From Brevundimonas sp. Root1279 (GTDB taxonomy: Bacteria > Pseudomonadota > Alphaproteobacteria > Caulobacterales > Caulobacteraceae), in contig NZ_LMEB01000010.1 of NCBI RefSeq assembly GCF_001425945.1, forward strand, positions 124,001 through 188,000: a stretch of 64,000 nucleotides of DNA, in the 5' to 3' direction. Shown here piece by piece: positions 2,130 through 28,200 of this stretch. The notes beneath the pieces are model-generated. The model saw only the letters and a program-made list of their open reading frames with translations. It did no database searches and was not told the origin of the DNA. The stretch's first letter is position 1. Each line of letters begins with the position of its first letter. The position numbers and the translations under genes are program-made.

Positions 2130-2527
2130 ACCGCGTCCTGCTGCCGGAAGGTTGGCCCCGGCCCAAGGGTTACTCGAACGGGATCGCGGCGCGGGGCGAG
2201 ACGATCTTCGTCGCCGGCCAGATCGGCTGGACCCCGGACGGCGCCTTCCCGGCGGGCGGATTCGCCGCCCAGTTCCGGCAGACGCTGGTCAACACCCTGG
2301 CCGTCCTGGCTGAGGCCGGCGCCGGGCCGGAGCATGTCGTGCGCATGACCTGGTACGTGGTCGACAAGGCCGAGTATCTGGCCAGCCTTCGCGAGATCGG
2401 CGCGGCCTGGCGCGAACTGATTGGCCCCCACTATCCTGCCATGGCCGTGGTCGAGGTGAAGGGCCTGATCGAGGACGCCGCCCGAGTGGAGATCGAGACT
2501 ACCGCCGTGATCGAAACGACCGCCTAG
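2126..2527 (+). CDS. Rid-family protein (YjgF/YER057c/UK114), probably not RidA proper
   Basis: A 133-residue protein with the Rid fold pattern, including the GQIG strand near residue 32 and the C-terminal VEIETTAV. Canonical RidA deaminates reactive enamines/imines and needs an Arg in the PARSxVEV segment. Here the same place reads YPAMAVVEV, so that Arg appears replaced. Rid subgroups lacking the Arg occur in catabolic operons, and some act as pathway hydrolases; the role here is unknown. The start ATG at 2126 overlaps the thioesterase stop. Its stop overlaps the convergent kinase gene by four bases, so this ends the operon. Confidence 0.8.
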   Translation: MNRVLLPEGWPRPKGYSNGIAARGETIFVAGQIGWTPDGAFPAGGFAAQFRQTLVNTLAVLAEAGAGPEHVVRMTWYVVDKAEYLASLREIGAAWRELIGPHYPAMAVVEVKGLIEDAARVEIETTAVIETTA

Positions 2528-4113
2528 GCGCCGACCTCGGAGGCGCTCGCCTCGGCGTGGCGGGGCTGATCGGGCAGGGTCGCCCGGATCCGCAAGCCTC
2601 GCTCGGCCGACGTGATTTCAAGATCGCCGCCGAGATGCTCCATCCGCGCCTTCATGCCGGCGATGCCAACGCCACCCGTGCTGTCGGCGAGCAGGCCGTG
2701 GATGTCTTCGTCCGACAGGCCGACGCCATCGTCCCGGATCTCTAGGGTGGTCGCGTCGCAAGCCGCGATCAGGCTGACCTCGACGGACCGAGCGACTGCA
2801 TGCTGGTGGACGTTCATCAGCGCTTCCTGCGCGATCCGGAACAGGGTCAGCTCGGCCGCCGGCCGTAGGTCGCTCAGGTCCTCGTCGATGTCCAGGCGGG
2901 TATCGAGGCCGGTCCTCCGGCCAAACCCTGAGACGAACTTCCGGAGGGTTCCGGCCAGTCCCAGGCGCTCCAGATCCGGCGGGTGCAGAAGGTAGGAAAA
3001 GGTCCGCACCTCACTATGGGCCGCGGTGAGGGCTTCACGGATGTCCCGCACCGCCTCGGCCGGCATCTCGGACCGGGGGTCGCGTTGCAGCCGCGACAGG
3101 GACAGATCGATGGCCACCAGATGCTGGGCCATTGAGTCGTGCAGTTCCCGGGCGATGCGACGGCGCTCCTCGGCCTCGGCCTTCAACAGCGCCGCAGACA
3201 TCTCGCCGAGTGACTCGGCCAGCTGGCGTTGCTCCGTGACGTCGAAGGCGAACCCCAGGATCTGCCGGACCGCACCCCGGACCGACCGGGTCAGCACCTG
3301 CTCGCGCACCTCGATCCAGCGCCAACCGCCATCCCTGTGCCGCATGCGCGCGCTCGCGCGGACGATGTCGCCGTCAGGGGCCGAGGCCAGACGGCGCCGA
3401 TGCATCATGAACTCAGGGATATCCATGGGATGGATCAGGCTGCGCCCCTCGGGTCGACCAACCTCACCGTCGGCGGGGCTGTAGCCCAGCAGCACCGACA
3501 GGTTGAACGGCATCCACGGCGCCCGGTCGTAGACATACGCTGCGCCGGCGTTGATCCGGTTCAGATGGTCGATCAGGGCGCGCCGACGGGTTCCGCCCGC
3601 CGGTCCTTCCTCTGAGGTCGTCTGAACCTCGATCAACACGCCGCGACGGGGCGTCGCGACCGGATGGATGGCCAGCGACAGCCGCCGGGTCCGACTGACG
3701 TCCAGATGGATCGGCACCACCGTCTCAACGCGCTGTCCATTCGCCAGCGCCCGACGGATCGCCTGGTCGAACGGCAGGTGCGTCTCCCGGGACAAAACGT
3801 CCCCGATTCGGCGCCCGATGATCGAATCAGCATGAATCCCGAGGTCGGCGAGAAAACTTCCGCTCACTCGAGTGAACCGCGGACCCTCCTCGCCATCGAC
3901 CGCGAGGGCCACCCGGAGGCTTGAATTGTTGATCCAGTCAAAGACCGAACCAAGCGGAGCCATAACAAGTTTATGGTCAAGCTTCTCGCCATATTCCTCA
4001 GGCATATCATGCCATGAGACAGGTTCTTCGAAAGCTTTGCTGATTTCCGGTCCCACAAGCCACCCATCAGATCGACCAGCATGCGACCACATGCTTAACT
4101 GCAGCCAAGTCAT
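2524..4113 (-). CDS. PAS-domain sensor histidine kinase, NarX/HisKA_3 type
   Basis: A cytoplasmic kinase of up to 529 residues with no transmembrane segment visible. Two PAS-like sensor regions lie at roughly 50-165 and 180-295; the second ends in the PAC-like DVTEQRQL. The HisKA_3 dimerisation domain carries the phospho-acceptor His near 325 in RRRIARELHDSMAQ. The HATPase domain follows, with N434 in the N box, DDGVG at 461-465 and GGVGIAGM at 480-487. This class pairs with LuxR/NarL response regulators, and one lies divergently next door. The start is uncertain: in-frame ATGs at 4113, 4092, 4005 and 3963 all lack a good Shine-Dalgarno site, and the first 50 codons are less GC-rich. The signal sensed is unknown. 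Confidence 0.85.
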   Translation of the reverse strand: MTWLQLSMWSHAGRSDGWLVGPEISKAFEEPVSWHDMPEEYGEKLDHKLVMAPLGSVFDWINNSSLRVALAVDGEEGPRFTRVSGSFLADLGIHADSIIGRRIGDVLSRETHLPFDQAIRRALANGQRVETVVPIHLDVSRTRRLSLAIHPVATPRRGVLIEVQTTSEEGPAGGTRRRALIDHLNRINAGAAYVYDRAPWMPFNLSVLLGYSPADGEVGRPEGRSLIHPMDIPEFMMHRRRLASAPDGDIVRASARMRHRDGGWRWIEVREQVLTRSVRGAVRQILGFAFDVTEQRQLAESLGEMSAALLKAEAEERRRIARELHDSMAQHLVAIDLSLSRLQRDPRSEMPAEAVRDIREALTAAHSEVRTFSYLLHPPDLERLGLAGTLRKFVSGFGRRTGLDTRLDIDEDLSDLRPAAELTLFRIAQEALMNVHQHAVARSVEVSLIAACDATTLEIRDDGVGLSDEDIHGLLADSTGGVGIAGMKARMEHLGGDLEITSAERGLRIRATLPDQPRHAEASASEVGA

Positions 4114-4209: not shown

Positions 4210-4845
4210 ATGCTGCGCGTCCTGATCGCTGACGACCATGAAATCGTGCGCCATGGAGTGCGCGACGTGGTTGCCAACCACTTGGGGTGGGAGGTCTGCG
4301 GCGAGTGCAGCGACGGAGCGGAGGTCCTCGCCCTGACCCGGGAGCGCCGGCCCAACGTCATCGTCCTCGACGTCTCCCTGCCCGGCCTCAACGGCATCGC
4401 CGTCACCCGCCAGATCCGCCAGACCTTCCCGGCGACCGAAGTCCTGCTGTTCACCATGCATGACGACGACGAGACCGTATCCGGGGGACTCGCCGCCGGA
4501 GCCCGGGGCTATCTGCTAAAATCAGAGGGCGACGCCCAGTTGGTGGCCGCCATCTCGGCCCTGGGCGCCCACCGTCCCTATTTCTCGCCCGCGGTGGCCG
4601 AGATGCTGCTCGAGTCCGCCGTCCACGAGCGCAAGAAGTCGCGCCTTGAGAGCTTCACCCTTCGCGAACTCGAGGTCGCCCAACTGATCGCCGAAGGCGA
4701 AAGCAACAAGCAGATCGCCCGCAAGCTGGGCATCAGCATCAAGACCGTCGAGAGCCACCGCGCGGCCGCCATGCGCAAGGCCAGGGTCCGGACCGCGGCC
4801 GAATTCGTCCGCTTCGCCATCAAGCACAACCTGATCCAGGCCTGA
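4210..4845 (+). CDS. LuxR/NarL-family response regulator
   Basis: A 211-residue two-domain regulator. The receiver domain (about 1-120) has the acidic pocket ADDH at 7-10, the phosphorylated Asp at 54 in VIVLDVSLPG, and the conserved Lys in GYLLKSE near 105. The C-terminal LuxR helix-turn-helix (about 148-205) contains the recognition segment NKQIARKLGISIKTVESHR. It is divergent from the PAS kinase, with which it forms a two-component pair. GGAGG sites lie upstream of the ATG. It sits at the left border of the dyad-containing sulfatase block, which makes it a candidate regulator of that block; nothing in the sequence proves this. Confidence 0.9.
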   Translation: MLRVLIADDHEIVRHGVRDVVANHLGWEVCGECSDGAEVLALTRERRPNVIVLDVSLPGLNGIAVTRQIRQTFPATEVLLFTMHDDDETVSGGLAAGARGYLLKSEGDAQLVAAISALGAHRPYFSPAVAEMLLESAVHERKKSRLESFTLRELEVAQLIAEGESNKQIARKLGISIKTVESHRAAAMRKARVRTAAEFVRFAIKHNLIQA

Positions 4846-4924: not shown

Positions 4925-6322
4925 ATGACCGACCAATACCCCGTGCCGACTGTCGACGAAGCCTGGCGCACGGCGCTGGACGCCTGCGTGGCGGGTTTTC
5001 CCCTATTGGTGCTCGACGCCGCACGACGCGCGCACCCCGCCGGGCCGAACCAGTTCGTCCACGCCCGGGCCGGTGAAACCCTGATCGGCCTCTGCGCCCC
5101 CAACCCGCACGTCGTCTATTCAAGTGCATGGCTCGACCTGCGCGACGGCCCGGTGATCGTCAGCCTGCCCGACCTTCGCGCCCGGCATTTCGCCATGCCG
5201 ATGATCGACGCCTGGGGCTCCATCTTCACCTCCATGGGCGTCCGCCGACGCGGCGAGGCGGCCCAGCACCTGGTCGTGGTCGGCCCCCACTGGAGCGGCG
5301 CCGCCACCGACGATGTCCCCGTCGTCCGCGCCCCCACGAATGCCGTCTGGCTGCTGGGGAGAACCCTGACCGACGCGTTCGACGACGGGCTGGAAGGGCC
5401 TTGGCACGAGTTCTACCTCACCCTGAAGGGACGCCGCACGCCTGCGCCGCCCGCGCCCCCGATAGAGCCCGAAGCCCGGCCGGCCTGGCCGGCGGCCGAG
5501 TTCCTGCAGCTGGACGCCGAGGACTTCCTGAGCCGCATGGCCGACCTGATGGACGTCCACCCGGCCCCGCCGACACGATGGCCCCTCGCCCAGCGGCTGG
5601 CTCGCATCGGGGTGAACCGCGGCGCGCCGGTCGACCTGTCGCGGCTGCCCCGGGAAATCTCGGACGCCGTCCGGGCGGGTGTGGCCGAGGCTCTCGCGCG
5701 TATCGACGCGGCCGCCTGGCCCCAGTCCGCGCCGACGAACGGCTGGTCCGCCCTGGCGCGGCCCGGCGACGGCCGCCTCGAGCCGCTCGCCCGCGCCGCC
5801 ATCGCCCGGCGAGGCTTCGGCTTCAACCTGCAAGAGGATGTGACCTACTTCCTCGCCTGTCAGGACGTCGACGGCGCGCCGCTGGACGGACGGACCGACT
5901 ATCGTCTGCGCTTCGAGCCGCAGCGCCTGCCGCCGGTCGGCGCGTGCTGGTCCCTGGCCGCCTATCGACCCGACGGCTCCCTGGCGACCCCGGAAGGCCC
6001 CCGCGCCGGCCTGTCCAGCCGCGAGCCGCTCCGTTTTGACCTCGACGGCTCCCTGGAACTGCATATCCAGCGCCGCAAGCCCGCCGGACCGCGCGTCATG
6101 AACTGGCTGCCGACGCCGGACGGTCCCTTCCATCTGGTGCTGCGCGCCTGTTGGCCGGGACGAGCGGTCCTCGACGGCCGCTGGTCTCCCCCGCCGATCG
6201 TTCGCAGCGCCGCCGAACGTCCGGCGTGGCGTGATCAGGCCGGGACTAGGCCTTCCCCGTCAGGCGGAAACCCGGCCTCTCTCCGGGATAGGCCTGATTC
6301 CTCGGCAGCCTGCCATCCGTAG
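4925..6322 (+). CDS. DUF1254/DUF1214 domain protein
   Basis: A 465-residue protein with an N-terminal DUF1254 region (about 25-135, with GPNQFVHAR and the segment DLRDGPVIVSLPDL) and a C-terminal DUF1214 region (about 300-420, with the motif NWLPTP and LVLRACWP). The molecular function of these domains is not established. No signal peptide is evident, unlike many family members. The ATG at 4925 follows GGAGGGAC. The last 45 or so codons after SPPPIVR look unlike protein and contain a dyad of the block's regulatory type, so the functional protein may end earlier in relatives. It is the first gene of the dyad-containing block that includes the FGE and sulfatase. Confidence 0.8.
   Translation: MTDQYPVPTVDEAWRTALDACVAGFPLLVLDAARRAHPAGPNQFVHARAGETLIGLCAPNPHVVYSSAWLDLRDGPVIVSLPDLRARHFAMPMIDAWGSIFTSMGVRRRGEAAQHLVVVGPHWSGAATDDVPVVRAPTNAVWLLGRTLTDAFDDGLEGPWHEFYLTLKGRRTPAPPAPPIEPEARPAWPAAEFLQLDAEDFLSRMADLMDVHPAPPTRWPLAQRLARIGVNRGAPVDLSRLPREISDAVRAGVAEALARIDAAAWPQSAPTNGWSALARPGDGRLEPLARAAIARRGFGFNLQEDVTYFLACQDVDGAPLDGRTDYRLRFEPQRLPPVGACWSLAAYRPDGSLATPEGPRAGLSSREPLRFDLDGSLELHIQRRKPAGPRVMNWLPTPDGPFHLVLRACWPGRAVLDGRWSPPPIVRSAAERPAWRDQAGTRPSPSGGNPASLRDRPDSSAACHP
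6260..6275 (+). promoter_or_regulatory. Dyad-like TCAGG-N6-CCCGG inside the 3' tail of the DUF1254 gene
   Basis: This matches the block's dyad in both half-sites except one base, but it lacks the following T and a clear -10. It is the weakest of the sites and may be chance. Confidence 0.25.
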
Positions 6323-6498
6323 ACTGTACGTGCATGGGCGGCGGGTTCGCCCCCCGACCACCTGCCACATGCAGGGCGCTGCTCATGTGCGGGGCCGCCT
6401 TCACCGCCGTCGGGCCTTCCAACGACCCGGGGTGAAGGCGGCCCGGCTACATCCCGTATCAATCCGGGTCACCCCCTCGAAGCGAATCGCCTTTCCCG

Positions 6499-6514
6499 TC
6501 AGGGTTTCGCCCGA
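6499..6514 (+). promoter_or_regulatory. Dyad TCAGG-N6-CCCGA with TATCTT -10
   Basis: The dyad is followed by T, 20 bp and TATCTT at 6537-6542, the same geometry as other copies. The nearest downstream gene start is 190 bp away, beyond a terminator-like hairpin, so this promoter may drive a short non-coding RNA. Confidence 0.5.
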
Positions 6515-6547
6515 TCGAAGGCCCACGGCATGGGCGTATCTTGCTGG

Positions 6548-6642
6548 TCCGCCCCTTTGGATCGCGGCATCCTCCTCCTGATCCCGTGTGTTCCGGTGCG
6601 AACCTTTACGGCCCCGCAGTCCGCTGCGGGGCCGCTCTGTTT
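6548..6642 (+). ncRNA. Candidate small RNA with anti-Shine-Dalgarno run
   Basis: A transcript starting about 7 bases after the TATCTT element would run roughly 95 bases to a GC-rich hairpin (10-bp stem, TCCG loop) followed by a short T-rich tract. It contains CCTCCTCCT at 6571-6579, complementary to ribosome binding sites. C-rich unpaired runs of this kind are used by several alphaproteobacterial small RNAs to repress translation. There is no plausible ORF in the segment. The boundaries are estimated, and the existence of the RNA is inference. Confidence 0.3.
6610..6642 (+). terminator. Terminator-like hairpin
   Basis: GGCCCCGCAG (6610-6619) pairs perfectly with CTGCGGGGCC (6624-6633) across a TCCG loop and is followed by GCTCTGTTT. 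The T-tract is short, so termination may be partial. Confidence 0.5.
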
Positions 6643-6661
6643 CACCCGCCAGATACGCATC

Positions 6662-6677
6662 TCAGGGTTCCGCCTGA
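6662..6677 (+). promoter_or_regulatory. Dyad TCAGG-N6-CCTGA upstream of the FGE gene
   Basis: A perfectly symmetric copy of the block's dyad, followed by T. The expected -10 position reads CTCAAG, which is a poor match. It lies 57 bp before the FGE start. Confidence 0.5.
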
Positions 6678-6733
6678 TGTCCGCCCCGACCGCCACCTGC
6701 TCAAGTGCGAGCCTCATCCGGGAGGCGGACAGA

Positions 6734-7720
6734 ATGACCACCCAGGCGCCCGATCTACAGGACCCCCAACCCGCCTCGCCGCGGCCGACCCCGACGCGCC
6801 GCGGCATGGTCTGGATCGATGGTGGAACCTTCCGCATGGGTTCGGACGAACACTACGCGGAGGAGGCGCCGAGCAAGCGGGTCACCGTCGATGGCTTCTG
6901 GATCGACAGCCGCCCTGTCACCAACGCCCAGTTCGCCTCCTTCGTGCGCGCCACGGGCTGGAAAACGGTCGCCGAGCGACCCGTGGACCCGGCCCTCTAT
7001 CCGGACGCTGATCCGGCCCTGCTCCAGCCCGCTTCGATCGTCTTCATGCCGCCCGAGCGCGACCACCCTCTGCGCGAGGGCGAGTGGTGGCAATACATTC
7101 ACGGCGCGGACTGGCGCCATCCGACGGGCCCCGGCAGCAGCATCGACGGACTGGAGACCCACCCTGTCGTCCACGTCGCCTGGGAGGACGTCACCGCCTA
7201 TGCCGTCTGGGCCGGAGCCGACCTGCCGACCGAGGCCGAGTGGGAGTTCGCCTCGCGCGGGGGGCTGGACGGCGCCGCCTTCGCCTGGGGTGATGAACTG
7301 CTGCTGGAAGGCTGGCAGCACATGGCCAACGTCTGGCAAGGGATGTTCCCGATCGAGAACCGGCGCGAGGACGGCTGGCTGCGGACCTCGCCGGTCGGGT
7401 CCTATCCTCCGAACGGCTACGGCCTGTACGACATGATCGGCAATACCTGGGAATGGACCAAGGACTGGTGGTCGCTCGCCGCCCCGGGCGCGGTCCCGGC
7501 CAGTCCCTGCTGCACGATCAAGAACCCGCACGGCGGCTCGTCCGAGCAGAGCTACGAACCCGGCATGGAGCATCTGAAGATCGCCCGACGGGTGCTCAAG
7601 GGCGGGTCGCACCTGTGCGCTCCCAACTACTGCCGCCGCTATCGCCCGGCGGCCCGCCACGCCCAGGCCGAGGACTCCTCGGCCTCGCACATCGGCTTCC
7701 GGGTGGTGGTCAGGGGCTGA
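6734..7720 (+). CDS. Formylglycine-generating enzyme (sulfatase-activating, SUMF1 family)
   Basis: A 328-residue aerobic-type FGE that would oxidise the active-site Cys of type I sulfatases to C-alpha-formylglycine. The domain runs from MVWIDGGTFRMGSD to the C-terminus. The copper-binding active-site cysteines are both present, C295 and C300 in SHLCAPNYCRRYR, spaced like Cys336/Cys341 of human FGE; this separates it from the many SUMF1-like proteins without this activity. DSSASHIGFR near the end is also typical. The ATG at 6734 follows GGGAGGCGG; an upstream extension to 6530 is non-coding in character. No signal peptide is seen, so it acts in the cytoplasm. Its clients are probably the sulfatases at 8418 and 52736. 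Confidence 0.93.
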   Translation: MTTQAPDLQDPQPASPRPTPTRRGMVWIDGGTFRMGSDEHYAEEAPSKRVTVDGFWIDSRPVTNAQFASFVRATGWKTVAERPVDPALYPDADPALLQPASIVFMPPERDHPLREGEWWQYIHGADWRHPTGPGSSIDGLETHPVVHVAWEDVTAYAVWAGADLPTEAEWEFASRGGLDGAAFAWGDELLLEGWQHMANVWQGMFPIENRREDGWLRTSPVGSYPPNGYGLYDMIGNTWEWTKDWWSLAAPGAVPASPCCTIKNPHGGSSEQSYEPGMEHLKIARRVLKGGSHLCAPNYCRRYRPAARHAQAEDSSASHIGFRVVVRG

Positions 7721-13633: not shown

Positions 13634-14407
13634 ATGAAACTCTCGAAAGCGGGGCTCGCCACCCTTTTCGCCAGCATCACCTTCCTCGTCGCGGCGCCGG
13701 CCATCGAAGCGGCGAACGCCCAGGTCCGCGGAGGCGGGCGCGGCGGCGGCATTAGCCGCGGCGGCGGGGGGGGCGGCGGCGGCTTCAGCCGCGGCGGCGG
13801 CGGCGGCCGCGCCAGTGCAGCCCGGCCGAGCGGCGGCAGCCGCGCCAGCGCGGCGACCCGACCGAGCGGCGGCGGCCGCGCCAGCGCGGCGACCCGCCCA
13901 AGCGGCGGCGCCGGCGCGGCTACCCGGCCGAGCGCCGGCGGCGCAACGAGCCGGCCTGGGGCCGGTGGCGCCGGCGCGGCGACCCGCCCCAGCGGCGGCG
14001 ACCGCACCAACATCAGCGGGGGTGATCGGATCAACACCGGCGACCGCGGCGGAAACCGCGTCAACACCGGGGACCGTGAGATCAACCGCGGAGATCGCGA
14101 GACCAACATCGACCGTGGCGATATCAACATCGACAACGACATCGACATCGATGGCGATCACGGCTGGGACTGGGATGACGGCTGGGGCGACCATCCGCTC
14201 GCCGCCGGCATCGCCTTCGGCACCGCGGCGGCCTGGACCTCCGCGGTCGTCGGCTCGATGTTCTACAGCATGCCGCCCGGGTGCTCGCCGTACTACACCT
14301 CGTACTACTATTGCGACGGGCACTATTATGCTCCGCAATATCAAGGAGATACGGTGGTCTACGTCGTGGTCGACGACCCGGCGAAGAGCGTGACTGTGGT
14401 CCAGTAG
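13634..14407 (+). CDS. Gly/Arg/Ser-rich exported low-complexity protein
   Basis: 257 residues: a signal peptide to about 30 (ending ANAQ), then RGG-like and RPSGG repeats to about 125, then an Asn/Asp-rich repeat of GDR/NTGDR units to about 165, and a conserved-looking C-terminal part. That part has a hydrophobic segment (AAGIAFGTAAAWTSAVVG), two Cys (PPGC...YYYC) and Tyr-rich sequence. Proteins with this C-terminus are common in alphaproteobacteria next to DUF2092 genes. Function is unknown. The RBS AAGGAGCTAGCC is 10 bases after the previous gene. Confidence 0.8.
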   Translation: MKLSKAGLATLFASITFLVAAPAIEAANAQVRGGGRGGGISRGGGGGGGGFSRGGGGGRASAARPSGGSRASAATRPSGGGRASAATRPSGGAGAATRPSAGGATSRPGAGGAGAATRPSGGDRTNISGGDRINTGDRGGNRVNTGDREINRGDRETNIDRGDINIDNDIDIDGDHGWDWDDGWGDHPLAAGIAFGTAAAWTSAVVGSMFYSMPPGCSPYYTSYYYCDGHYYAPQYQGDTVVYVVVDDPAKSVTVVQ

Positions 14408-16278: not shown

Positions 16279-19200
16279 TCAGAAGCGCATACGGAGGTTC
16301 AGGCCGGCGGTGCGATTGTCGAAGGTCTCGCCGGATTCCGCCTCATAGGTGAACCGGAACTCGAAGCCCGCCGCCGTCGCCACCCGCAGGTCCGCGCCCA
16401 GCACCAGGGCCTCTTGATTGAGGCTGGTGCCGATCATGGCGGGGATGGCGTCCGGATTGGAGCCCAGCAGACGGTACGGCATCCGGATCTCGTCCTGCGA
16501 GCGGAAGACGCCGCCGGCGGTGACCTGGAACGTCGCCTCGGCTTCCTGGCTGTCGGCGAGGATGAAGCCAAAACCGAGCTCAGGATTGGCCGTCGCGTAG
16601 ACCTCGGTGTCCGCAAGCGCCTCGACGCCGAGGCCTTCCAGCCCCTCTTCCGAGAAGTTGCCCTGACGCAAAGCCGTCGCCGACAGGTTCAGGGCCGGGC
16701 GGACGAACAGGTTTCCGCTGACCGCCGTGTAGGCGATGTGCGCATTGGTCTGGAAGTAGCCGCTCTCCGGCTCCGAGGTCCCGACAAGCGGCTCGAAGAC
16801 GTTGACCGAGCGGGCAGTCTCCAGCTGTTGCCAGCCACCCGAGATCGACACGCCGTACTCCAGGCCGTCCCAATCGGTGCGTTCGATGCCGAGGCTGCCG
16901 TGGAAGCCCTTGCCGTCCGAACGGGATCGATCGGCCACGTCGACGCGGCTGATCTTGTCGAAGCCAACCGCGGCGGCCACGGTCCAGTTCTCGGCGAACG
17001 GCCGCTCGAAGCCCATCCGCAGGCGGGTTTCCTGAGCCCCGACCTGGAAGTTCTCGAACGTCCCCGGCCGATCGAACGCCGTGCCCTCGACCCGCGCCCA
17101 CACGCACTGTTCGCGCTTGCGGAAGGCCGGCGGCGCACAGTTGAACAGCTGGCCCGCGAAGTCCTCAGCGGCGGTCAGCTGCGTGGCCATCGGGACCATC
17201 AGCGGTTCGGGATTCAGCTCGCGGAAGATCTGGGCGTAGAGCGCTTCGTCTCCGGCCTGAAGGTTGCCGATCAGGGCCATCAGCCGGCCGATGCCGCCTG
17301 AGTCGCCCGCCAGGATGGCGAAGTCCATGTGACGGCCGAGCTGGCGCTCGTTGTAGTTCAGGAACGGCTGGCCGAAGTCGCTGACGAAGGACAGGTGCAC
17401 CCCGTTGGCGTCGGCGCGGACGCTGTAGTCCATCGCCAGGGTGTCTTCGATCTCCAGGCCGTTGTCGACGCCGATGCCGGCGCCGGGGGTCGCGAACAGC
17501 GTCCGCTCCTCGGCGTTCTCCAGCCAGGTCAGGATGACCTCGCCGGTTCCGTCAACGGTCGCATTCCCCGTAACGTTCACGATGTCCGAGGCATACGGGC
17601 CGAAGGCGATGTCGAACGCCAGGTGGCCGTTCGACGTCTGGATGTAGTCGCCGTCCAGCGCCACCGAGTTGATGACCCGCGCGCCGTACAACAGGTTGGT
17701 GGTCGGATCGCCCTCGTTGTCCAGGTCGTCGAAGACGTCCCCGGCCGCCAGATCGATCGGCAGACGCGACGCGCTGAGACCCATCAGGAAGTCGCCGGCG
17801 TTGGTGAAGGTCCCGGTGCTGCCGGCTCCGTCACGCAGGTCGATCGTGCTGAAGGCCATGAAGGTCCCGTCGACGTTGTTGTCGAAGGCGTTGTGACCCG
17901 AGCCGAGATCGATATTGCCGATCACGGCGCCGTTGTTCTGGACTTCGTCATCGCCGGTGGTGGTGTCGATGGCCAGGCCCGAGACCGCCGAGATCGAACC
18001 CGAGGTCTGGATCAGGTTCAGCGAACCGCCGTCAAAGCGGACGCCGGCGCCCGTTCCCGTGCCGCCGCGGATCATGTCCTGCGAGATCAGGCTGATCGCG
18101 CCGCGGCCCGTCGACCCGAGGCTCTGGGCGAAGACGCCCGTCGAGTTCGTACCGGCCGCGAAGATCACCCCGCCGACGGCGAGGTCGATGTTTCCGCCGG
18201 CGCCGACGCCGCCGGCCGAGGAAGCCAGGCCGCCTTCGACCCAGCCGCCGCCGCCGCCCAGGCTTTGAGCGACCAGACCGTAGGCGTTGTCGCCCAGCAC
18301 GATGATGCTGTCGTCCTGGACGAAGCTGATGTCGCCGCCGTCGCCGACATTGTCGCCGCTGACGGTGACATTGGCGTCGAAGTCGCCGAACACCGCGCCG
18401 CCGCCGCCGCCGATCGACTGCAGGAAGACGCCGTGCGAGTGGTCGCCGACCGTGACGATGTCGCCGTCATGGACGACGTCGATGTCGCCGCCGTGCCCTT
18501 CGGCGCCGACGGCTCCGCCGATCGCGACGTTCACTGTCGACACGCCATGCACCCGCAGCTCGCCGCCGCCGCCGCCGATCGACTGGGCGATCAGGCCGGT
18601 GGCGTAGTCGCCGAAGGTCTGGATCCCGCCCGAGAAGAGGCCGGAAATATCACCGCCGTCGAGCCCGGAGCCGCCGTTCGCGCCCAGCACCGCGCCGAGC
18701 GTGGCGCCGGTCGCGCCGTCGCCCGCCAGGATGACGCTGGCCGAGCCGCCGCCGCCGCCGATGCTCTGCAGGATCGCGCCGGGCGACAGGTCGCCGCCGG
18801 TGGTGATGGCGCCGGTGTTGACGCGGGACACGTCGCCCCCGGTTTCATCAGTTCCGTTCGTGCCGCCGAGCGTGACGTCGAGGGCCCCGATCAGGGCGCC
18901 GGTCGGAATATCCAGATCGATCAGGCCGATGCCGCCGCCGCCGCCGATCGACTGCACCATGACCGCAGGCGCGTTCAGCCCGGCCGTCAGCATGGAGCCG
19001 ACATGGGCGCTGGCGACGTCGCCGCCGTGGTTGCCCACGCCGTCCGCGCCGCCGAGGACCAGGGCGAACGGGATGGCGACCGGATCGCCCGGAGCCGCCG
19101 ACGGATCGACGCCCGGCGCCGCCAGCGGCGACACTTCGGGACCGCCCGCAGTCTTGGTCGCAGCCAGGGCCGGGAGCACTTCCGGAGCCGGGGCCGGAGG

Positions 19201-22200
19201 CGGAGCCAAGGGCGAGATGGTCGCCTTCATGATCACCTGGCCGCCACCGCCGCCGATCGCCTGGGTCAGGCTGCCGATGCCGTTGCGGCCGCCCACCTGC
19301 AGAGTGCCGGTGGTGTTGATGGTGACGTCGCCCGACGTCATGTTCACCGCGTTCTCGGCGCCGAGACGGCCGAGGACCATCGGATCCGGGACGACGGTGT
19401 CGCCGTGTAGATCGATGAACGGCGAGCCGTTCAGGCCGACGATGCCGCTGAAGTCGAAGGTCAGCGTGCCGCCGCCGCCGTTGATGCTCTGGGCGATGAT
19501 CGCCTGCGAGCCCTCGCCGAGGACGGTGATGTCGCCCGAATGGTTGACCGTCACATGACCGCCGGCGCCGCCGGAGCCGCCCCCGAAATTGCCGACCAGG
19601 GCCGAAATGGCGTGCGACAGGATCATGGTCCCGACGTCGGAGGTCAGGCCGAAGCCCATCTGGGCGTTGCCGCCGCCGCCGCCGATCGACTGGGCCAGGA
19701 TGCCGTGGGCGTTGGTCCCGCGGGTGACGATATTGCCGGTGTTGGTGACCGTCACCGCGCCGCCGTCGCCGCCGTCGCCGCCGACGCCGCCGACGGTGAT
19801 CAGCGGGGCGTGGGTCAGCATCTGGGTGGTCGGGGCGATCATGACGTTGGCCGCGAAGGCCGCGCCGCCGTTGCCGCCGCCGCCGCCGATCGACTGGGCC
19901 AGGATGCCGTGTGCGCCCGCGCCGGTCGTGTCGATCAGGCCCGCGTTGAGGACATCGACCGTGCCGCCGGTGTTGCCGGTGCCGCCCGCGCCGCCGACGT
20001 TGAGGCCGATCAGGAAGCTGTCGCGGCCAGTGACCATGCCGGTCAGCGACAGGACGCTGGAGCCGTTGCCGCCGCCGCCGCCCAGCGACTGGGCGAAGAT
20101 GCCGTAGCCGCCCTCGCCGCGCGTGACGATCTCGCCGGTGTGGTCGTCGCCGGCCACCGGCCGGTTGATAACGGAGACATTGCCGCCGACGCCGCCGTCG
20201 CCGCCGGAGCCGCCGATGTTGGCGACGAAGCGGTGGGTCTGGTTGTCCGTGCCCGCGTAGCCGAGCTGCACATCGAGGACCAGGCCGGCGTCGCCGCCGC
20301 CCCCGCCGATGCTGTTGGCGCTGATGCCCGTGGCGAAGCGGCCCTCGGTGAAGATCAGGCCTTCGTTGAGGACGTCGACCGCGCCGCCGGCGCCGCCGGT
20401 TCCGCCTGCACCGCCGATGTTGAAGTCGATGTCGTCGCTTCCGCGGTACTGCAGGGCCGCATTGAGGACCATGCCGCCCACGCCGCCGCCGCCGCCGATC
20501 GATTGACCGCGGATGCCGTGCGAGTATTCGCCCTCGGTGCCGATGACGCCGAAGTTGGAGACGTCGACCGCGCCGCCGACCGCGCCGGTCCCGCCTGAGC
20601 CGCCGACGCTGACCGACAGGGTGCGCATGGTCGTCGTCGGGGGCGGGCCGCCGACCTGGAAGGCCAGGGTGCGGGCAACGCCGCCCATGCCGCCGCCGCC
20701 GCCGATCGCCTGGGCCAGGATGCCGTCGGCGCGGTGGCCGGTGGTCACGATGGTGGCGTCGCTGGTGACGGTGACGTCGCCCGAGACGGCGCCCGTGCCG
20801 CCCGTGCCGCCGACGGTGACCGTCGCGGCGCCGGCGTTGCGGACGATGGTGTTGGCGGCCGAGCCGCCGCGGCCGCCGCCGCCGCCGATCGATTGGGCGA
20901 AGACGCCGCGCGCCTCATAGCCCGCCGTCTCGATACGACCGCTGACGTCCACATTGACGTCGCCGGCGGTCGCGCCGACGCCGCCGGCCAGACCGACCGA
21001 GACGCCCGCGCTGTAGGATTCGGCCTGCGGCGTGTTGGCCCCGCTGGTGCCCGATACGGAGACGGTTGTGGCGCTGCTGGCGCCGCCGCCGCCGCCGATC
21101 GACTGGGCCAGAACGCCGTCGGCGGTCTCGCCTTCGGTCACGATCGTGCCGTCGGCGACCACGGTCACATCGCCCGCCGCGCCGCCCGTGCCGCCGTTGC
21201 GGCCGACGGTGATGCCCACAGAGTGATTGGCCAGGATGCCCAGGGCGAGGTCGAGGACGGTGTCGCCGCCGCCGCCGCCGACCGACTGGGCGTGAATGCC
21301 CGCCGAGTCGCGGCCTTCGGTCATGATGACGCCGTGGTGCTCGACCGAGACGTCGGCGCCCGAGCCGCCGGCGCCCGTGGCCCCGCCGACAGCGAGGTTC
21401 AGGGCGGTGGCGTTGCGCAGCACGCCGAAGCCGATGTTGAAGTTGGCGTCGCCGCCGCCGCCGCCCAGCGACTGGGCGAAGATGCCGTCGCTGTCGATGC
21501 CGGTGGTCTGGATATCGCCGTTGTGGCGCACGGTGACGTCATCGCCGCTGCCCGCGCCGGCGCCCGAACCGCCGACGGCGATCAGGGCCGCCATCGGGTT
21601 GTTGCCCGGCGAGTGGGTGGTCAGGGCGAAGACGGCGTTGACGCCGGCTCGGCCGCCGCCGCCGCCGATCGACTGGGCGATCAGGCCCGCGGCGTTGTTG
21701 CCTTCCGTGCTGATGAGGTGGGGCGTGCCGACCTCGGCCGCGCCGCTGCCGGTGTAGCCGCGGACCACGTCGACCGTGCCGCCGTGACCGCCGGAACCGC
21801 CCGATCCGCCGACGCCGATCGCCGCCGGTTGGCCGAAGGGCGCGACCACGCCGGTGGCGTTGACGCCGCCGACGCCGCCGCCGCCGCCGACCGACTGGAC
21901 CAGGATGCCGGCCGCCGGCATGTCCGGAGAGCCCTCCAGCGGGATGCTGGTCGCCTGGGCGTCGAGGAAGATGTTGCCGTTGCTGTGCAGCGAGACCGCG
22001 CCCGCGTCCGCGCCGTCGCCGCCCGTGCCGCCGACACCCACGCCGATTGCGATGCCGCGCGACCGGTTGTCGGAGCCGCCTTCGCCCAGGTGGACGTCAG
22101 CCGTGACGTTCAGGCCGCCCGAGCCGCCGCCGCCGGCGATCGATTGGACCAGCACGCCGATGGCGCCGCCGCCCTCGACCACGACCTGGCCGTTCTGGAT

Positions 22201-25200
22201 GGCCGTGACGTCGCCGCTGGCGTTGCCGGCGCCGCCGAAGCCGCCCATGCCGAAGGTCAGCGAGGGCTCTTCGCCGGCGGGATCGGCGCTGACGCCGCCC
22301 GAGATGTTGATGGCGCCGGCGCCGCCGCCGCCGCCGATCGACTGGACCATCAGGCCCCGCGACAGGGCGCCGGCCGCGAACAGATCCGCGTCGACGTCGG
22401 CGTAGACGTTCCGGCCCAGGCCGCCGCCGCCGCCGAAGCCGCCGATGCCGGCGGTCAGGACGCCGTCCATGGCGATGCCGCCCGAGACGTTGATGCCGCC
22501 GTTGCCGCCGCCGCCGCCGATCGACTGCACGGCGACCGCTGAGCGGCTGTCGCCGATGGCCGAGACCTGGACGCGCGAGGCGTCCGGCGAGCCGAGGGTC
22601 AGGCTGACGGCGCCGGCGTCGCCGCCCGCGCCGCCGAAGCCGCCGACGCCCAGGGTCACCGAGCGCGCCGCCTGGCTGCCCGGAGGCGTCAGGGAAATCT
22701 GGCCGGAGACGTTGAGGCCGCCGTTGCCGCCGCCGCCGCCGATCGACTGCACGACCACGCCGTTGGAGCCGCCGTCGCGAACGCGGTGGGCCGGGATGTA
22801 GGTGTCGTCCCAGGAGCCAGGCAGGATGCCGGTATTGGTCTCGGCCGGGGTCCAGTAGTCGATCTCGAGGCCGCGGGCCCAGACGTTGCCGGTCACCGTG
22901 GCGTTCACGTCGCCGGCGTCGCCGCCGCCGCCGCCGAAGCCGCCCAGGCCGAAGGCGAGTCCGCCGGCCGTGCCGCTGGTGCTGGCCGCGATGCCGCCGG
23001 TGACGTTGATCGCCCCGTTGCCGCCGCCGCCCGCCAGGCTCTGCACGATCAGGCCGTCGGAGTTGGCGCCGTCGGTGTCGATGTCGCCGGTGTAGCTGAA
23101 GTTGACCGCGCCCGAATTGCCGCCCAGGCCGCCGAAGCCGCCGATGCCGATGCCGACCGTGCCCGCCGTGCCGGAGCTGAGCGCCACATTGCCGGAGACG
23201 TTGAGGCCGCCGTTGCCGCCGCCGCCGCCCAGGCTCTGGGCGGTGACGCCGTCGGCATTGGCGCCGCGGGTGATGTAGTCGCCGGTGACCGACCCGGTCA
23301 CAGAACCGGCGTCGCCGCCGCCGCCGCCGAAGCCGCCGACGCCGATGCCGATGGTGACGGCGGGGTTGCCGTTGACCGACAGCGACAGGCCGCCCGTGAC
23401 GTTGAAGCCGCCGTTGCCGCCCGAGCCGCCGAGGCTCTGCAGCATGGCGCCGTAGGAGCCGTCGCCCTGGGTCTGAACGTCGCCGGTCAGGTAGCCGGTC
23501 ACGTCGCCGGCGTCGCCGCCGCCGCCGCCGAAGCCGCCCAGGCCGAAGCCGAGCGTGCCGTTCATGCCGGCCGAGGCGCTCAGACCGCCGGTGATGTTGA
23601 AGCCGCCGTTGCCGCCGCCGCCGCCGACCGACTGGACCAGGGCGCCCCAGGCGTCCACGCCCTGGGTCGAGATGTCGCCGGTGATCGAGGCGTTGACCGT
23701 CGAGCCGTCGCCGCCGTCGCCGCCGAAGCCGCCCACGCCGACGCCGATGTTGCCCGTGCCGCCGCCGCTGCCGGCGATGGCCACGCCGCCGGTGATGTTG
23801 AAGGCGCCGTTGCCGCCGCCGCCGCCAAGGCTTTGATAAGTCACGCCGGATGAGCGATCGCCCTCGGTCACGACATCGCCGGTGAAGGTCCCGCTGACCG
23901 CGCCGCCGTCTCCGCCGCCGCCGCCGTAGCCGCCGACGCCGACCATCAGGTTGCCGGCCGCCGTCTGCGAGCCGCTGACGCCGCCCGAGACGTTGAAGCC
24001 GCCATTGCCGCCGCCGCCGCCGACCGACTGGACCAGCACGGCCGCCGAATCCGCGCCGTCGGTGCCGACGTCGCCGTTGATGTTGCCGATCACGACGCCG
24101 CCGTCACCGCCCGCGCCGCCCCCGCCGCCGATGCCGACGCCCACGTTGCCGGCCGCCGACTGGGCGCCCGAGATGCCCGCGGTGATGTTGAAGCCGCCGT
24201 TGCCGCCGCCGCCGCCGACGCTTTGCGCCAGGATCCCGCGCGCATTGGCGCCGGTGGTCACGGCCGCGATCAGGGTGTCGCCCGGATCGGCCACGCCCGT
24301 GTTCTGGTTCAGGGTGACCGCGCCGCCATTGCCGCCGCCGCCGCCCGTGCCGCCGATGCCGATGCCCAGAGTGCCCGCGCCGCTCTGCGCAAAGGCCATG
24401 TTACCGGTGACGTTGAAGCCGCCCGAGCCGCCGCCGCCGCCCACGCTCTGGGCGATGACGGCGTCGCTGCCCGCGCCCGAGGTCTGGGCCGCGCCGGTGA
24501 AGGTCAGGCTGACCGTGCCGCCCGCGCCGCCGGCGCCGCCTGAACCGCCGACGCCCGCCGACAGCGAGGCCGCGCCGGTCTGGCCGCCGGAGATGGAGCC
24601 GGCGACGTTGAAGCCCCCGTTGCCGCCGCCGCCGCCGATGCTCTGGGCTGTGACCGCATCGGATTCGCCGCCCGAGGTCACGACATTGCCGGTCACCGTG
24701 GCCGTGACCGAGCCGCCCAGACCGCCGCCGCCGCCCGATCCGCCGACGCCGACGCTCAGGCCGAGGCCGCCGGTCTGGCCGCCGCCGATGCTGCCGGAGA
24801 CGTTGAAGCCGCCGTTGCCGCCGCCGCCGCCGACGCTCTGCGCCAGGAAGCCGGCCGACTGCTCGCCGGAGGTCAGGATGCCGACCGAGCTGGCCGTAAC
24901 CGAGCCGCCCGCGCCGCCCGAACCGCCCGAGCCGCCGACGCCGACCGAGATCGCGCCGCCGACCGTGCCGCCGCCGCCGATGCCGCCCGAGACGTTGAAG
25001 GCGCCCGAACCGCCGCCGCCGCCGATGCTCTGGATCGTCACGCCGGCCGACTGGTCGCCGCGCGTCTCGACTGCGCCGAGCGCATGGCCGATGACCGTGC
25101 CGCCCGCGCCGCCGCCGCCGCCGGCCCCGCCGACGCCGACCGAGACCGCGCCCCCGACCGTGCCGCCGCCGCCGATGCTTCCGGAGACATTGAAGCCGCC

Positions 25201-28200
25201 GTTGCCGCCGCCGCCGCCGACCGACTGGACGAGCAGGCCGCCGGACTGCTGGCCCAAGGTCAGGATGGTGTCGCCGCTCGAGCCGGTGACATCGCCGCCT
25301 GCGCCGCCGCCGCCGCCGGCCCCTCCGACGCCGATGGCCAGGCCGAGGCCGACCGTGCCGCCGCCGCCGACGCTGCCCGAGACATTGAAGCCGCCCGAGC
25401 CGCCGCCGCCGCCGATCGACTGGATGGTCACCGCCGTCGAACGGTCGCCGCGCGTCTCGACCGCGTCGCCGACGCTGCCGATGACCGTGCCGCCCGCGCC
25501 GCCGGAGCCGCCCGAGCCGCCGACGCCCACCGAGACCGCGCCCCCGGCCGTGCCCGCGATCGAGACCGCGCCCGAGACGCTGAAGCCGCCGTTGCCGCCG
25601 CCGCCGCCGACCGACTGGATCAGGGCGCCGCGCGAGTCGTCGCCGGTGGTCAGAATCGTGCCGTCGAAGTGGCTGGTGACCTGACCGCCGATGCCGCCGA
25701 GGCCGCCTGAACCGCCGACGCCGACCGAGGCCGAAGCCGAAGCCACGCCCGCGCCAGAGCCGGTGAAGGCGATCGAGAAGCCGCCGTTGCCGCCGCCGCC
25801 GCCGACCGACTGCGTCAGGAAGCCGGTCGAGAAGTCGCCCGTGGTCTGGATCGCGCCGCCGGAGTCGACGTCGACCGTACCGCCGACGCCCCCGTTGCCG
25901 CCCGAACCGCCCACGGACACGCCGAAGGCCGCCGCGGCGGTCTCGCCGGCCGCGAAGGAGAAGGACATGGCGAAGCCGCCGTTGCCGCCGCCGCCGCCCA
26001 CCGACTGGGCGAACAGGCCCTCGGAATAGTCGCCGCTAGTCAGAATCGTGGCGTGGCCGTCGAGATTGACCGTGCCGCCGACGCCGCCGCTGCCGCCCGA
26101 GCCGCCCACGGCGACGCTGGCGCTGACGCCATAGCCGGCCGAGACTTGGGCTGCGAAGCCCCCGTTGCCGCCGCCGCCGCCGACCGACTGGGCGAAGATG
26201 CCGCGCGACCGCAGGCCGTCGGTGGTGATCAAGGGCGCCAGGGTCTGGCTGCCGCCGCCAATTGTCTCGGTGCGTTCGAACAGATTGACGTTGACCGTGC
26301 CGCCGTTGCCGCCGAGCCCGCCATTGCCGCCGACCGCCGCGCCCGCAAAGGCGCTGATCGAGACGGTCGAACCGCCGTTGCCGCCGCCGCCGCCGACCGA
26401 CTGGGCGAAGATGCCGTGCGAGTCGTCGCCGAGGGTCGACAGGTCGTGAGCGTTGTTGATCGTCACAACACCGGAATTGCCGCCGCCGCCGCCCGCGCCG
26501 CCGATGGTCAGGAAGACGCCGCCCGAGGAGCCGCCGTCGCCGCCGCCGCCGCCGATCGACTGCGCCTGAATGGCGCTCGACATGTTGCCCAGGATCCCCC
26601 CGACACCGGTGGAGATGCGGCCGTTATTGGTGACCGTGACGTTCTGGCCGATGCTCTGGCCCGAGCCGTTGCCGCCCAGGGTCGCCAGACCGCCGCTGTC
26701 GCCGCCGGCGCCGCCGCCGCCGCCCACCGACTGGGCGAAGATTCCGCGCGCGAAATTGCCGGCGGTCTCGATGGTCCCGCCGTTGGTCACTGTGACAACG
26801 CCGCCGTTGCCGCCGAGGCCGCCGCCGCCGCCCAGGGCGACGACGCCGCCGCTGGCCGAGCCGGAGCCGCCGCCGCCGCCCACCGACTGGGCGAAGATGC
26901 CGTCGGAGCCGAGGCCGCTGGTCGAAATCCAGCTGTCGTCACTGGTGGTGACGGTCACGGCGCCCGCATGGCCGGCGCCGCCGCCCGAACCGCCCAGGCT
27001 GACCAGGCCGCCGGTGCCCAGGGCGTTGCCGCCGCCGCCGCCCAGCGACTGGGCGAAGACCCCGCGCGAGCCCGCGCCGGTCGTGGTCACCGTTGCGCCG
27101 GAGTTGACAGTGACGTCGCCGCCCAGGCCGCCGCTGGCGCCCGTCGAGCCCAGGCTCACGATCAGGGAGCCGGTGATGCCGCCGTTGCCGCCGCCGCCGC
27201 CGATCGACTGGGCGAAGACGCCGTGGGACGAGATGCCCGTGGTCGTCACGAAGGAGTTGTCCGCCGCGAAGATCTGGGCCGCGCCGCCGTTGCCGCCGGT
27301 GCCGCCGCCCGAACCGAGCGCGACCAGGCCGAGGCCGAGGCCGCCGTTGCCGCCGCCGCCGCCGATCGACTGCGAGAACAAGCCGTGCGAGGCGTCGCCC
27401 TCGGTCCGCACCTGCGAATTGGCCATGGCGCGTACGATCGCCGTGCCGCCGTTGCCGCCCGGGGCGCCGTCGTCGGAGAAGGTCACCAGACCCACGGCGT
27501 TGCCGGCGTCGCCGCCGATGCCGCCCAGGCTCTGGGCCGTCACGCCGTAGGAGGCGTCGCCCAGGGTGGTGACGATGCCGTAGTTGATCGCCTCGGCGTG
27601 TCCGCCCTGACCGCCGCGGTTGCCCGCGCCGCCGTCGCCGAACAGGCCGTAGCTGCCGCCGCCGCTGCCGGCGCCGCCGCCCAGCGACTGGGCGAACACG
27701 CCGTGCGAGCCGCCGCCCTGGGTGGTGATGGTGCTGTAGTTGGTCGCCGTAGCCGTGCCGCCGCTGCTGCCCGAACCGCCCGAGCCGCCGCTCGAGAAGA
27801 CGAAGCCCGAACCGCCCTCGCCGCCGATGCCGGCCCGGCTCTGGGCGACGACGCCGTGCGCCTGGTCGCCGCTGGTGGCGATCGTCCCGTAGCGCGAGAC
27901 GACCGTGACCTGCCCGCCCGCGCCGCCGTTGCCGCCCGAAGCGCCCGAGGCCCCCAGATAGCCGTCGCCGCCGTCGCCGCCGTCGCCGCCGATGCTGACG
28001 CCCATCAGACCCGAGACGCCGTTCGAGGTCGTGCTGATGCCCAGGCCCGAATTACCCATGTCGACGGTGAAGGGCGCCACGGTCTGACCGTCGCCGCCCG
28101 AGTCGGCCGAGACGAACAGGGCGCCGTCGCTGCCGCCGCCGCCGCCGTCGCCGCGCCGGATGTCATGGAAATAGCCGCTGTCGCCCGGACCCGAGGGCAT

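Follow-up and report, generated by a model that had tools for sequence, protein, structure and literature searches.

A candidate small RNA gene with a predicted C-rich loop, likely controlled by an adjoining two-component module, in Brevundimonas sp. Root1279

Alphaproteobacteria have stress small RNAs such as the CcsR or cuckoo RNAs of Rhodobacter, whose loops are of the CCUCCUCCC type. The CcsR RNAs arise by processing from an operon that includes a DUF1127 protein gene and lies behind RpoH promoters (PMC10253847). The α-r14 or NfeR1 family of Sinorhizobium carries the anti-Shine-Dalgarno (anti-SD) motif CCUCCUCCC in the unpaired parts of its hairpins, acts on a translation start, and forms a regulatory loop together with a two-component system (PMC10746234). 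Within the Caulobacteraceae, the general-stress small RNA GsrN uses a C-rich loop to pair with G-rich sites in mRNAs (PMC5869019), and we infer that the Rfam family RF01529 (CC3552) is GsrN from its locus, its C-rich loop, and that description. Lastly, the SisA-D RNAs (α-r8) of Caulobacter crescentus repress mRNAs through a single-stranded UUUCCUCCCU core (PMC12559287). Here, we describe a candidate small RNA gene that shares features with these systems and is embedded in a two-component module.

The element was found in a 64,000-nucleotide stretch of Brevundimonas sp. Root1279 (RefSeq GCF_001425945.1, contig NZ_LMEB01000010.1, positions 124,001 to 188,000 of the forward strand), which is referred to as the window and to which all plain coordinates apply. 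The module consists of a PAS/HisKA_3 sensor histidine kinase assigned by Pfam (2524-4113, minus strand), a NarL/LuxR-type response regulator with Response_reg and GerE domains (4210-4845, plus strand), and a DUF1254/DUF1214 protein (4925-6322, plus strand, Pfam), and is followed by a gene for a formylglycine-generating enzyme (FGE-sulfatase; 6734-7720, plus strand; Pfam PF03781, E 1.3e-79) with a ribosome site at its start. The DUF1254/DUF1214 gene is a core gene of the module, with orthologues in nine of the eleven module loci compared and absence from those of genomes G072 and G091. Downstream of FGE, Pfam identifies a sulfatase (8418), a HAD hydrolase (10134), DUF4136 genes, and a DUF2092 gene (12805), followed by a Gly-rich gene (13634-14407) whose homologues adjoin the RNA in other genomes. 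This Gly-rich gene contains tandem GGCGGC-rich repeats at 13770-14041, spaced 24 to 36 nt apart. Further along, an open reading frame of 4215 codons on the minus strand (16279-28926) has no Pfam match and may only mirror a long gene encoded in another frame or on the opposite strand. Among the open-access papers searched, no title or abstract on the subject of this module was listed.

The element itself spans 6499-6642 on the plus strand. It begins with the dyad TCAGGGTTTCGCCCGA (6499-6514), a putative operator of the NarL-type regulator, which is followed 22 nt behind the dyad by a -10 element, TATCTT (6537-6542), recognized from the sequence and from the promoter alignment described below. 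The candidate small RNA of ∼94 nt would extend from 6549, as judged from the -10 element, to 6642, where an intrinsic terminator ends (6609-6642). The terminator stem (6609-6634) has 11 pairs, 10 of which are G-C, and precedes the tail CTCTGTTT. Between the start and the terminator lies the anti-SD run CCTCCTCCT (6571-6579), of which CUCCUCCU (6572-6579) forms a predicted hairpin loop. A second dyad, TCAGGGTTCCGCCTGA (6662-6677, plus strand), is the putative FGE promoter. The first-pass annotation had drawn attention to the dyad with its -10 element, the separate dyad for the next gene, and the anti-SD run and hairpin with a short T-tract between them, and all of these are present in the sequence.

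The individual parts were compared with chance levels. The CCTCCTCCT run occurs once in the window, where 0.59 occurrences are expected by chance over the whole length, and it is present in 43 of 100 window shuffles. Terminator-like sites show no overall enrichment (8 found against 7.3 expected in 16 kb); the one at 6609-6634 is at the top of the list and has the most G-C pairs among the short-stem sites. The candidate RNA segment folds better than its own shuffles (z of -4.0 to -4.08), and the terminator stem accounts for most of this difference. The window also holds an excess of dyad-like sites, with 13 sites having at most two mismatches against a shuffle mean of 2.24 and a maximum of 8 (n = 100). 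On their own, these parts make a weak to modest, suggestive case, and comparison with relatives is needed for more.

To define the promoter, 29 dyad promoters from the window, the rest of the genome, B. lenta, G072, Phenylobacterium, Phenylobacterium J367, a Caulobacteraceae metagenome-assembled genome (MAG), and Caulobacter were aligned; this set, to which the 6499 site belongs, was hand-picked for a gene or RNA behind each site and is not a random sample. A T directly follows the dyad in 27 of the 29 promoters. A -10-like hexamer is locked at offset 23, where the mean match to TATAAT is 2.59 out of 6 as compared to 1.76 or less at all other offsets tested, with an A at offset 24 in 17/29 and a T at offset 28 in 20/29. 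At the 6499 site, the -10 element is one base nearer, at offset 22. As read from the alignment, this spacing corresponds to an activator whose site overlaps the -35 region. The window dyads at 6499, 6662, 8349, 11416, and 12146 share the strand of the module genes. Counting dyads genome-wide was rejected as evidence for a regulon: sites with at most one mismatch number 19 to 42 in 16 regulator-less genomes and 31 to 48 in 11 regulator-bearing ones, the window genome having 48. Because the dyad is about equally common with and without the regulator, its assignment to the regulator stays putative. Another perfect dyad in this genome (L015:1501, at G000:C7:130515) has a strong GC hairpin within 130 nt and no obvious gene start; it could be one more dyad-driven RNA or the terminator of the opposite strand.

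Counterparts of the element were then sought in related genomes. A BLASTN search of 61 genomes with the window element gave only partial matches of ∼22 to 42 nt outside its own genome. A pattern search of 390 genomes gave four matches. One is the window genome and another is B. lenta (G076), its sister species; the remaining two are genomes of genus g23, which were dismissed by eye as chance since no terminator was seen behind either. In B. lenta, the interval between the DUF1254 and FGE genes contains, in order, a dyad, CATGTT at offset 23, a loop with UUCCUCC, GACCUCCC, a terminator with a better T tract (CTTTTTC), and a further dyad. This syntenic counterpart (L071:9358-9451) is 56% identical to the window RNA before the terminator, as compared to 50% for the upstream non-coding DNA. 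The conservation in relatives on which the first-pass annotation had made its proposal depend is thus found in the layout and hardly in the primary sequence of the window RNA. The dyad preceding FGE recurs as well, in B. lenta, G072, G091, and Phenylobacterium.

A much better conserved version is found in Phenylobacterium. In five genomes, the dyad TGAGGCGCCGACCTGA and a terminated RNA lie just before the FGE dyad, and the RNA combines a hairpin loop holding UCCCCCC with an unpaired CCUCCU and the terminator. Mean identities over the 10 genome pairs are 100% for the dyad, 72% for the spacer to the RNA, 96% for the RNA body, 83% for the terminator, 60% behind the terminator, 77% for the FGE leader, 84% for the FGE coding sequence, and 69% for the upstream DNA. 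The RNA body is therefore conserved above the neighboring coding sequence, as expected of a functional RNA. The dyad-driven RNA of ∼106 nt is located at L073:11581-11740, with equivalents in L072, L074, L075, and L154. By BLAST, this type is strong in 5 of 390 genomes, all regulator-positive, and an Rfam search with one locus (L166) gave no match.

A second structured RNA, absent from the first-pass annotation, lies upstream of the element. This RNA-1 (6332-6448, plus strand) begins right behind the DUF1254 stop codon and consists of an outer stem, an invariant C-rich loop, UCGCCCCCCGACC (6347-6359), an inner hairpin, and a long 3′ hairpin without a T tail. The window sequence and its B. lenta counterpart (L071:9121-9238) fold independently to the same shape, with an outer stem of 12 pairs. 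They share 28 pairs, four of which have changed on both sides and four on one, and sliding the partners cuts pairing from 100% to 37 to 48%, in a test that uses two sequences only and takes the structure from their shared fold. A weaker dyad, TCCGGGATAGGCCTGA (6282-6297, plus strand), is located inside the end of the DUF1254 gene, and 22 nt after it, TAGACT (6320-6325, plus strand) overlaps the stop codon; with the spacing of the 29-promoter class, the two are a possible promoter of RNA-1. RNA-1 could exist as an RNA in its own right or simply form the 3′ end of the transcript from the DUF1254 gene. Judged from the aligned sequences, its comparative support is stronger than that for 6499-6642. 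This raises the alternative that RNA-1 is the real regulator, perhaps as one longer transcript together with 6549-6642, and that the element serves mainly as its terminator or as insulation of FGE. The four compensatory changes among the shared pairs, the invariant loop, and the missing T tail of its own all fit this alternative. The presence of a dyad and a terminator belonging to 6499-6642 itself speaks against it, as does the search with covariance model R3 across 27 loci, which found RNA-1 in none beyond the window and B. lenta (and no GsrN match), whereas the unit of dyad, RNA, and terminator recurs in other genera without RNA-1. We consider this alternative unlikely.

In other members of the family, the RNA is found in a different position. 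Clear dyads are present in Phenylobacterium J367 and the MAG, each ahead of an RNA with a C-rich loop (ACCCCCG and a loop holding CCCCCCC, respectively). Three Caulobacter genomes have a related RNA whose GUCCGCC/GGCGGAC hairpin carries CCUCCUCCCC or a similar sequence in its loop; two of them have a degenerate dyad, TCAGGGTAATCACGGA, with the same spacing, and no dyad was seen in the third. The Caulobacter loci are L083:11705-11619 (minus strand), L084, and L085, and in L083 a hairpin pairing AGGAGGU with ACCUCCU follows. By BLAST, the Caulobacter type occurs in 3 of 75 Caulobacter-group genomes, all regulator-positive, where it adjoins the kinase gene. An alignment of the three Caulobacter RNAs with that of J367 has 94% of cells paired and three pairs changed on both sides, a count that shuffles match in 62 of 500 cases, so the covariation is weak. 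In addition, the Brevundimonas genome G072, which has a 62% identical regulator, contains a dyad, a CCCCCC-holding loop, and a terminator ∼5 kb from the regulator gene.

These layouts bear on a second alternative, in which the first dyad drives a second, longer FGE transcript whose leader contains the terminator as a conditional attenuator, and the short RNA is only a by-product. The element is indeed directly upstream of FGE in the window, B. lenta, and the five Phenylobacterium genomes, and in the window the FGE frame stays open as far upstream as 6530; in B. lenta, however, the open frame does not extend through the element, and FGE has its own dyad promoter in all seven of these genomes. 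In J367, the MAG, and the three Caulobacter genomes, the RNA is not before FGE at all: it lies between the Gly-rich gene and the kinase gene and runs toward the convergent Gly-rich gene. Since the RNA is away from the FGE upstream region in five genomes, it is no mere FGE leader. We give the attenuator little credence. A small RNA driven by the dyad promoter of the block, as the first-pass annotation proposed, is instead well supported by the position-locked -10 element, the B. lenta layout, and the equivalents in Phenylobacterium and Caulobacter.

The distribution of the RNA was compared with that of the regulator. The regulator (E up to 1e-60) is present in 24 of 390 genomes of the family; leaving out G155 and G156, whose match is 52% identical, gives 22 genomes with at least 56% identity. 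In 13 of these 22 Caulobacteraceae genomes, the regulator orthologue has near it an RNA that ends in a terminator and contains a loop of the C-rich or anti-SD type (G000, G072, G076, G164, G239, G241, G262, G314, G322, G336, G341, G343, and G358). Within the DNA covered, no such RNA was found near the regulator in the other nine (G091, G230, G317, G338, G356, G374, G376, G382, and G410), of which G091, G356, and G410 have the regulator on short contigs. The expectation of a nearby RNA in more genomes with the regulator (G230, G317, G410, and others) thus failed in 9 of 22. An automatic scan for a dyad, a C-rich motif, and a terminator was positive at 6 loci over 409 kb of DNA from the module and at no locus over 795 kb of other DNA, with a rule set chosen after the elements had been seen, under which four Phenylobacterium loci failed the terminator rule and the Caulobacter loci failed the dyad rule. 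Without the C-rich motif, the 795 kb gave three hits, two of which are the window's own 11345 and 11416 sites. That a dyad-like promoter and an ordinary terminator flank a CCT run by chance, with no functional RNA here even if relatives have one, agrees with the expectation of a CCTCCTCCT somewhere in the window and with the low sequence conservation to B. lenta, yet it is quite improbable given a -10 element that fits the position-locked class, the recurrence of the order dyad, CCTCC, terminator, dyad, FGE in B. lenta, and the equivalent in five Phenylobacterium genomes.

The loop is CUCCUCCU in the window and UCCCCCC, ACCCCCG, or CCCCCC in relatives, and because of this variation "C-rich pairing loop" is a safer description than anti-SD. 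The covariance model R2 gave 22.6 bits for the window RNA, 20.9 bits for a generic unrelated terminator, and 29.5 bits for another terminator in the window (63141); R2 was rejected as proof of homology of the window RNA, since terminators unrelated to it reach similar or higher scores. An Rfam match to ncS54 stayed below threshold, at 21.9 bits where the gathering score is 43; it looks terminator-driven and was dismissed. Target predictions were near background: over 38 predicted start sites in the window, mean pairing was -33.6 kcal/mol as compared to -31.6 kcal/mol for shuffled RNA (sd 1.3), and no conserved target was found. Pairing with the regulator's own start site is strong in the window (z of -3.0, rank 5 of 135). 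Autoregulation of the regulator by the RNA was set aside since this pairing is found in the window only, that is, for 1 of the 11 RNAs tested.

How does the candidate compare with the described systems? The window RNA had no Rfam match at the gathering threshold. It resembles GsrN in its predicted C-rich loop, CUCCUCCU, and RNA-1 has an architecture resembling that of GsrN, with an outer stem, a CGCCCCCC-GAC loop, and an inner hairpin. However, the window RNAs lie behind dyads in a two-component module and not behind a σEcfG promoter. In this genome, GsrN is encoded elsewhere, on contig C1, by a gene that was located via NepR and has an RF01529 score of 102 bits and a σEcfG-type promoter (GGAAC...CGTT), and the GsrN and NepR locus is on a contig other than that of the window. 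The window gives no RF01529 hit at the gathering threshold, and relaxing the cutoff to an E value of 10 over 6320-6760 gives none either. The absence of this match, the dyad promoter, and the true GsrN elsewhere in the genome rule out that the element is GsrN. With α-r14, the candidate shares an anti-SD motif in the predicted unpaired part of a hairpin; it differs in that α-r14 has three hairpins with an identical motif in each, whereas the window RNA has one such hairpin with one CCTCCTCCT, in that its loop varies between relatives, and in its regulator. Unlike the CcsR RNAs, the window RNA stands by itself as one terminated unit within a kinase/regulator module. The UUUCCUCCCU core of SisA-D is absent from its sequence, and the available portion of the SisA-D source describes no two-component dyad (PMC12559287). 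Judged by its sequence, the window RNA belongs with the known C-rich-loop small RNAs, with an unusual pattern in which position and promoter are kept and sequence is not.

Based on these comparisons of sequence and layout, we think it likely that the adjoining two-component module has a small RNA gene at 6499-6642, transcribed from a dyad promoter. The sensor kinase would activate the NarL-type regulator, which would bind the dyad centered near -42 and recruit RNA polymerase to the -10 element at 6537. A short RNA starting at ∼6549 would then end at the terminator (6634-6642), and its C-rich loop, CUCCUCCU, would pair with G/A-rich mRNA stretches, most simply Shine-Dalgarno sequences, and lower translation. 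Pairing and repression are suggested by the loop sequence and by analogy with NfeR1, GsrN, and SisA (PMC10746234, PMC5869019, PMC12559287). The same regulator would meanwhile raise the sulfatase/envelope block, so that the module gains a repressing arm.

This two-component system would probably act through RNA as well as through proteins, and a sulfatase-maturation enzyme together with DUF1254, DUF2092, and DUF4136 proteins seems to be under its control as well. More tentatively, the RNA arm of the module could consist of two tandem dyad-controlled RNAs that differ in architecture, the GsrN-like RNA-1 and an anti-SD-loop RNA-2, whose position and promoter were kept while the sequence was replaced or diverged across the Caulobacteraceae. 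If true, the function of a C-rich-loop RNA would be conserved without sequence conservation. An RNA arm would be added to the kinase/NarL-regulator module of the Caulobacteraceae, and a two-component-driven C-rich-loop RNA would exist beside the general-stress GsrN in one genome. The strongly conserved Phenylobacterium version provides a tractable entry point to this biology.
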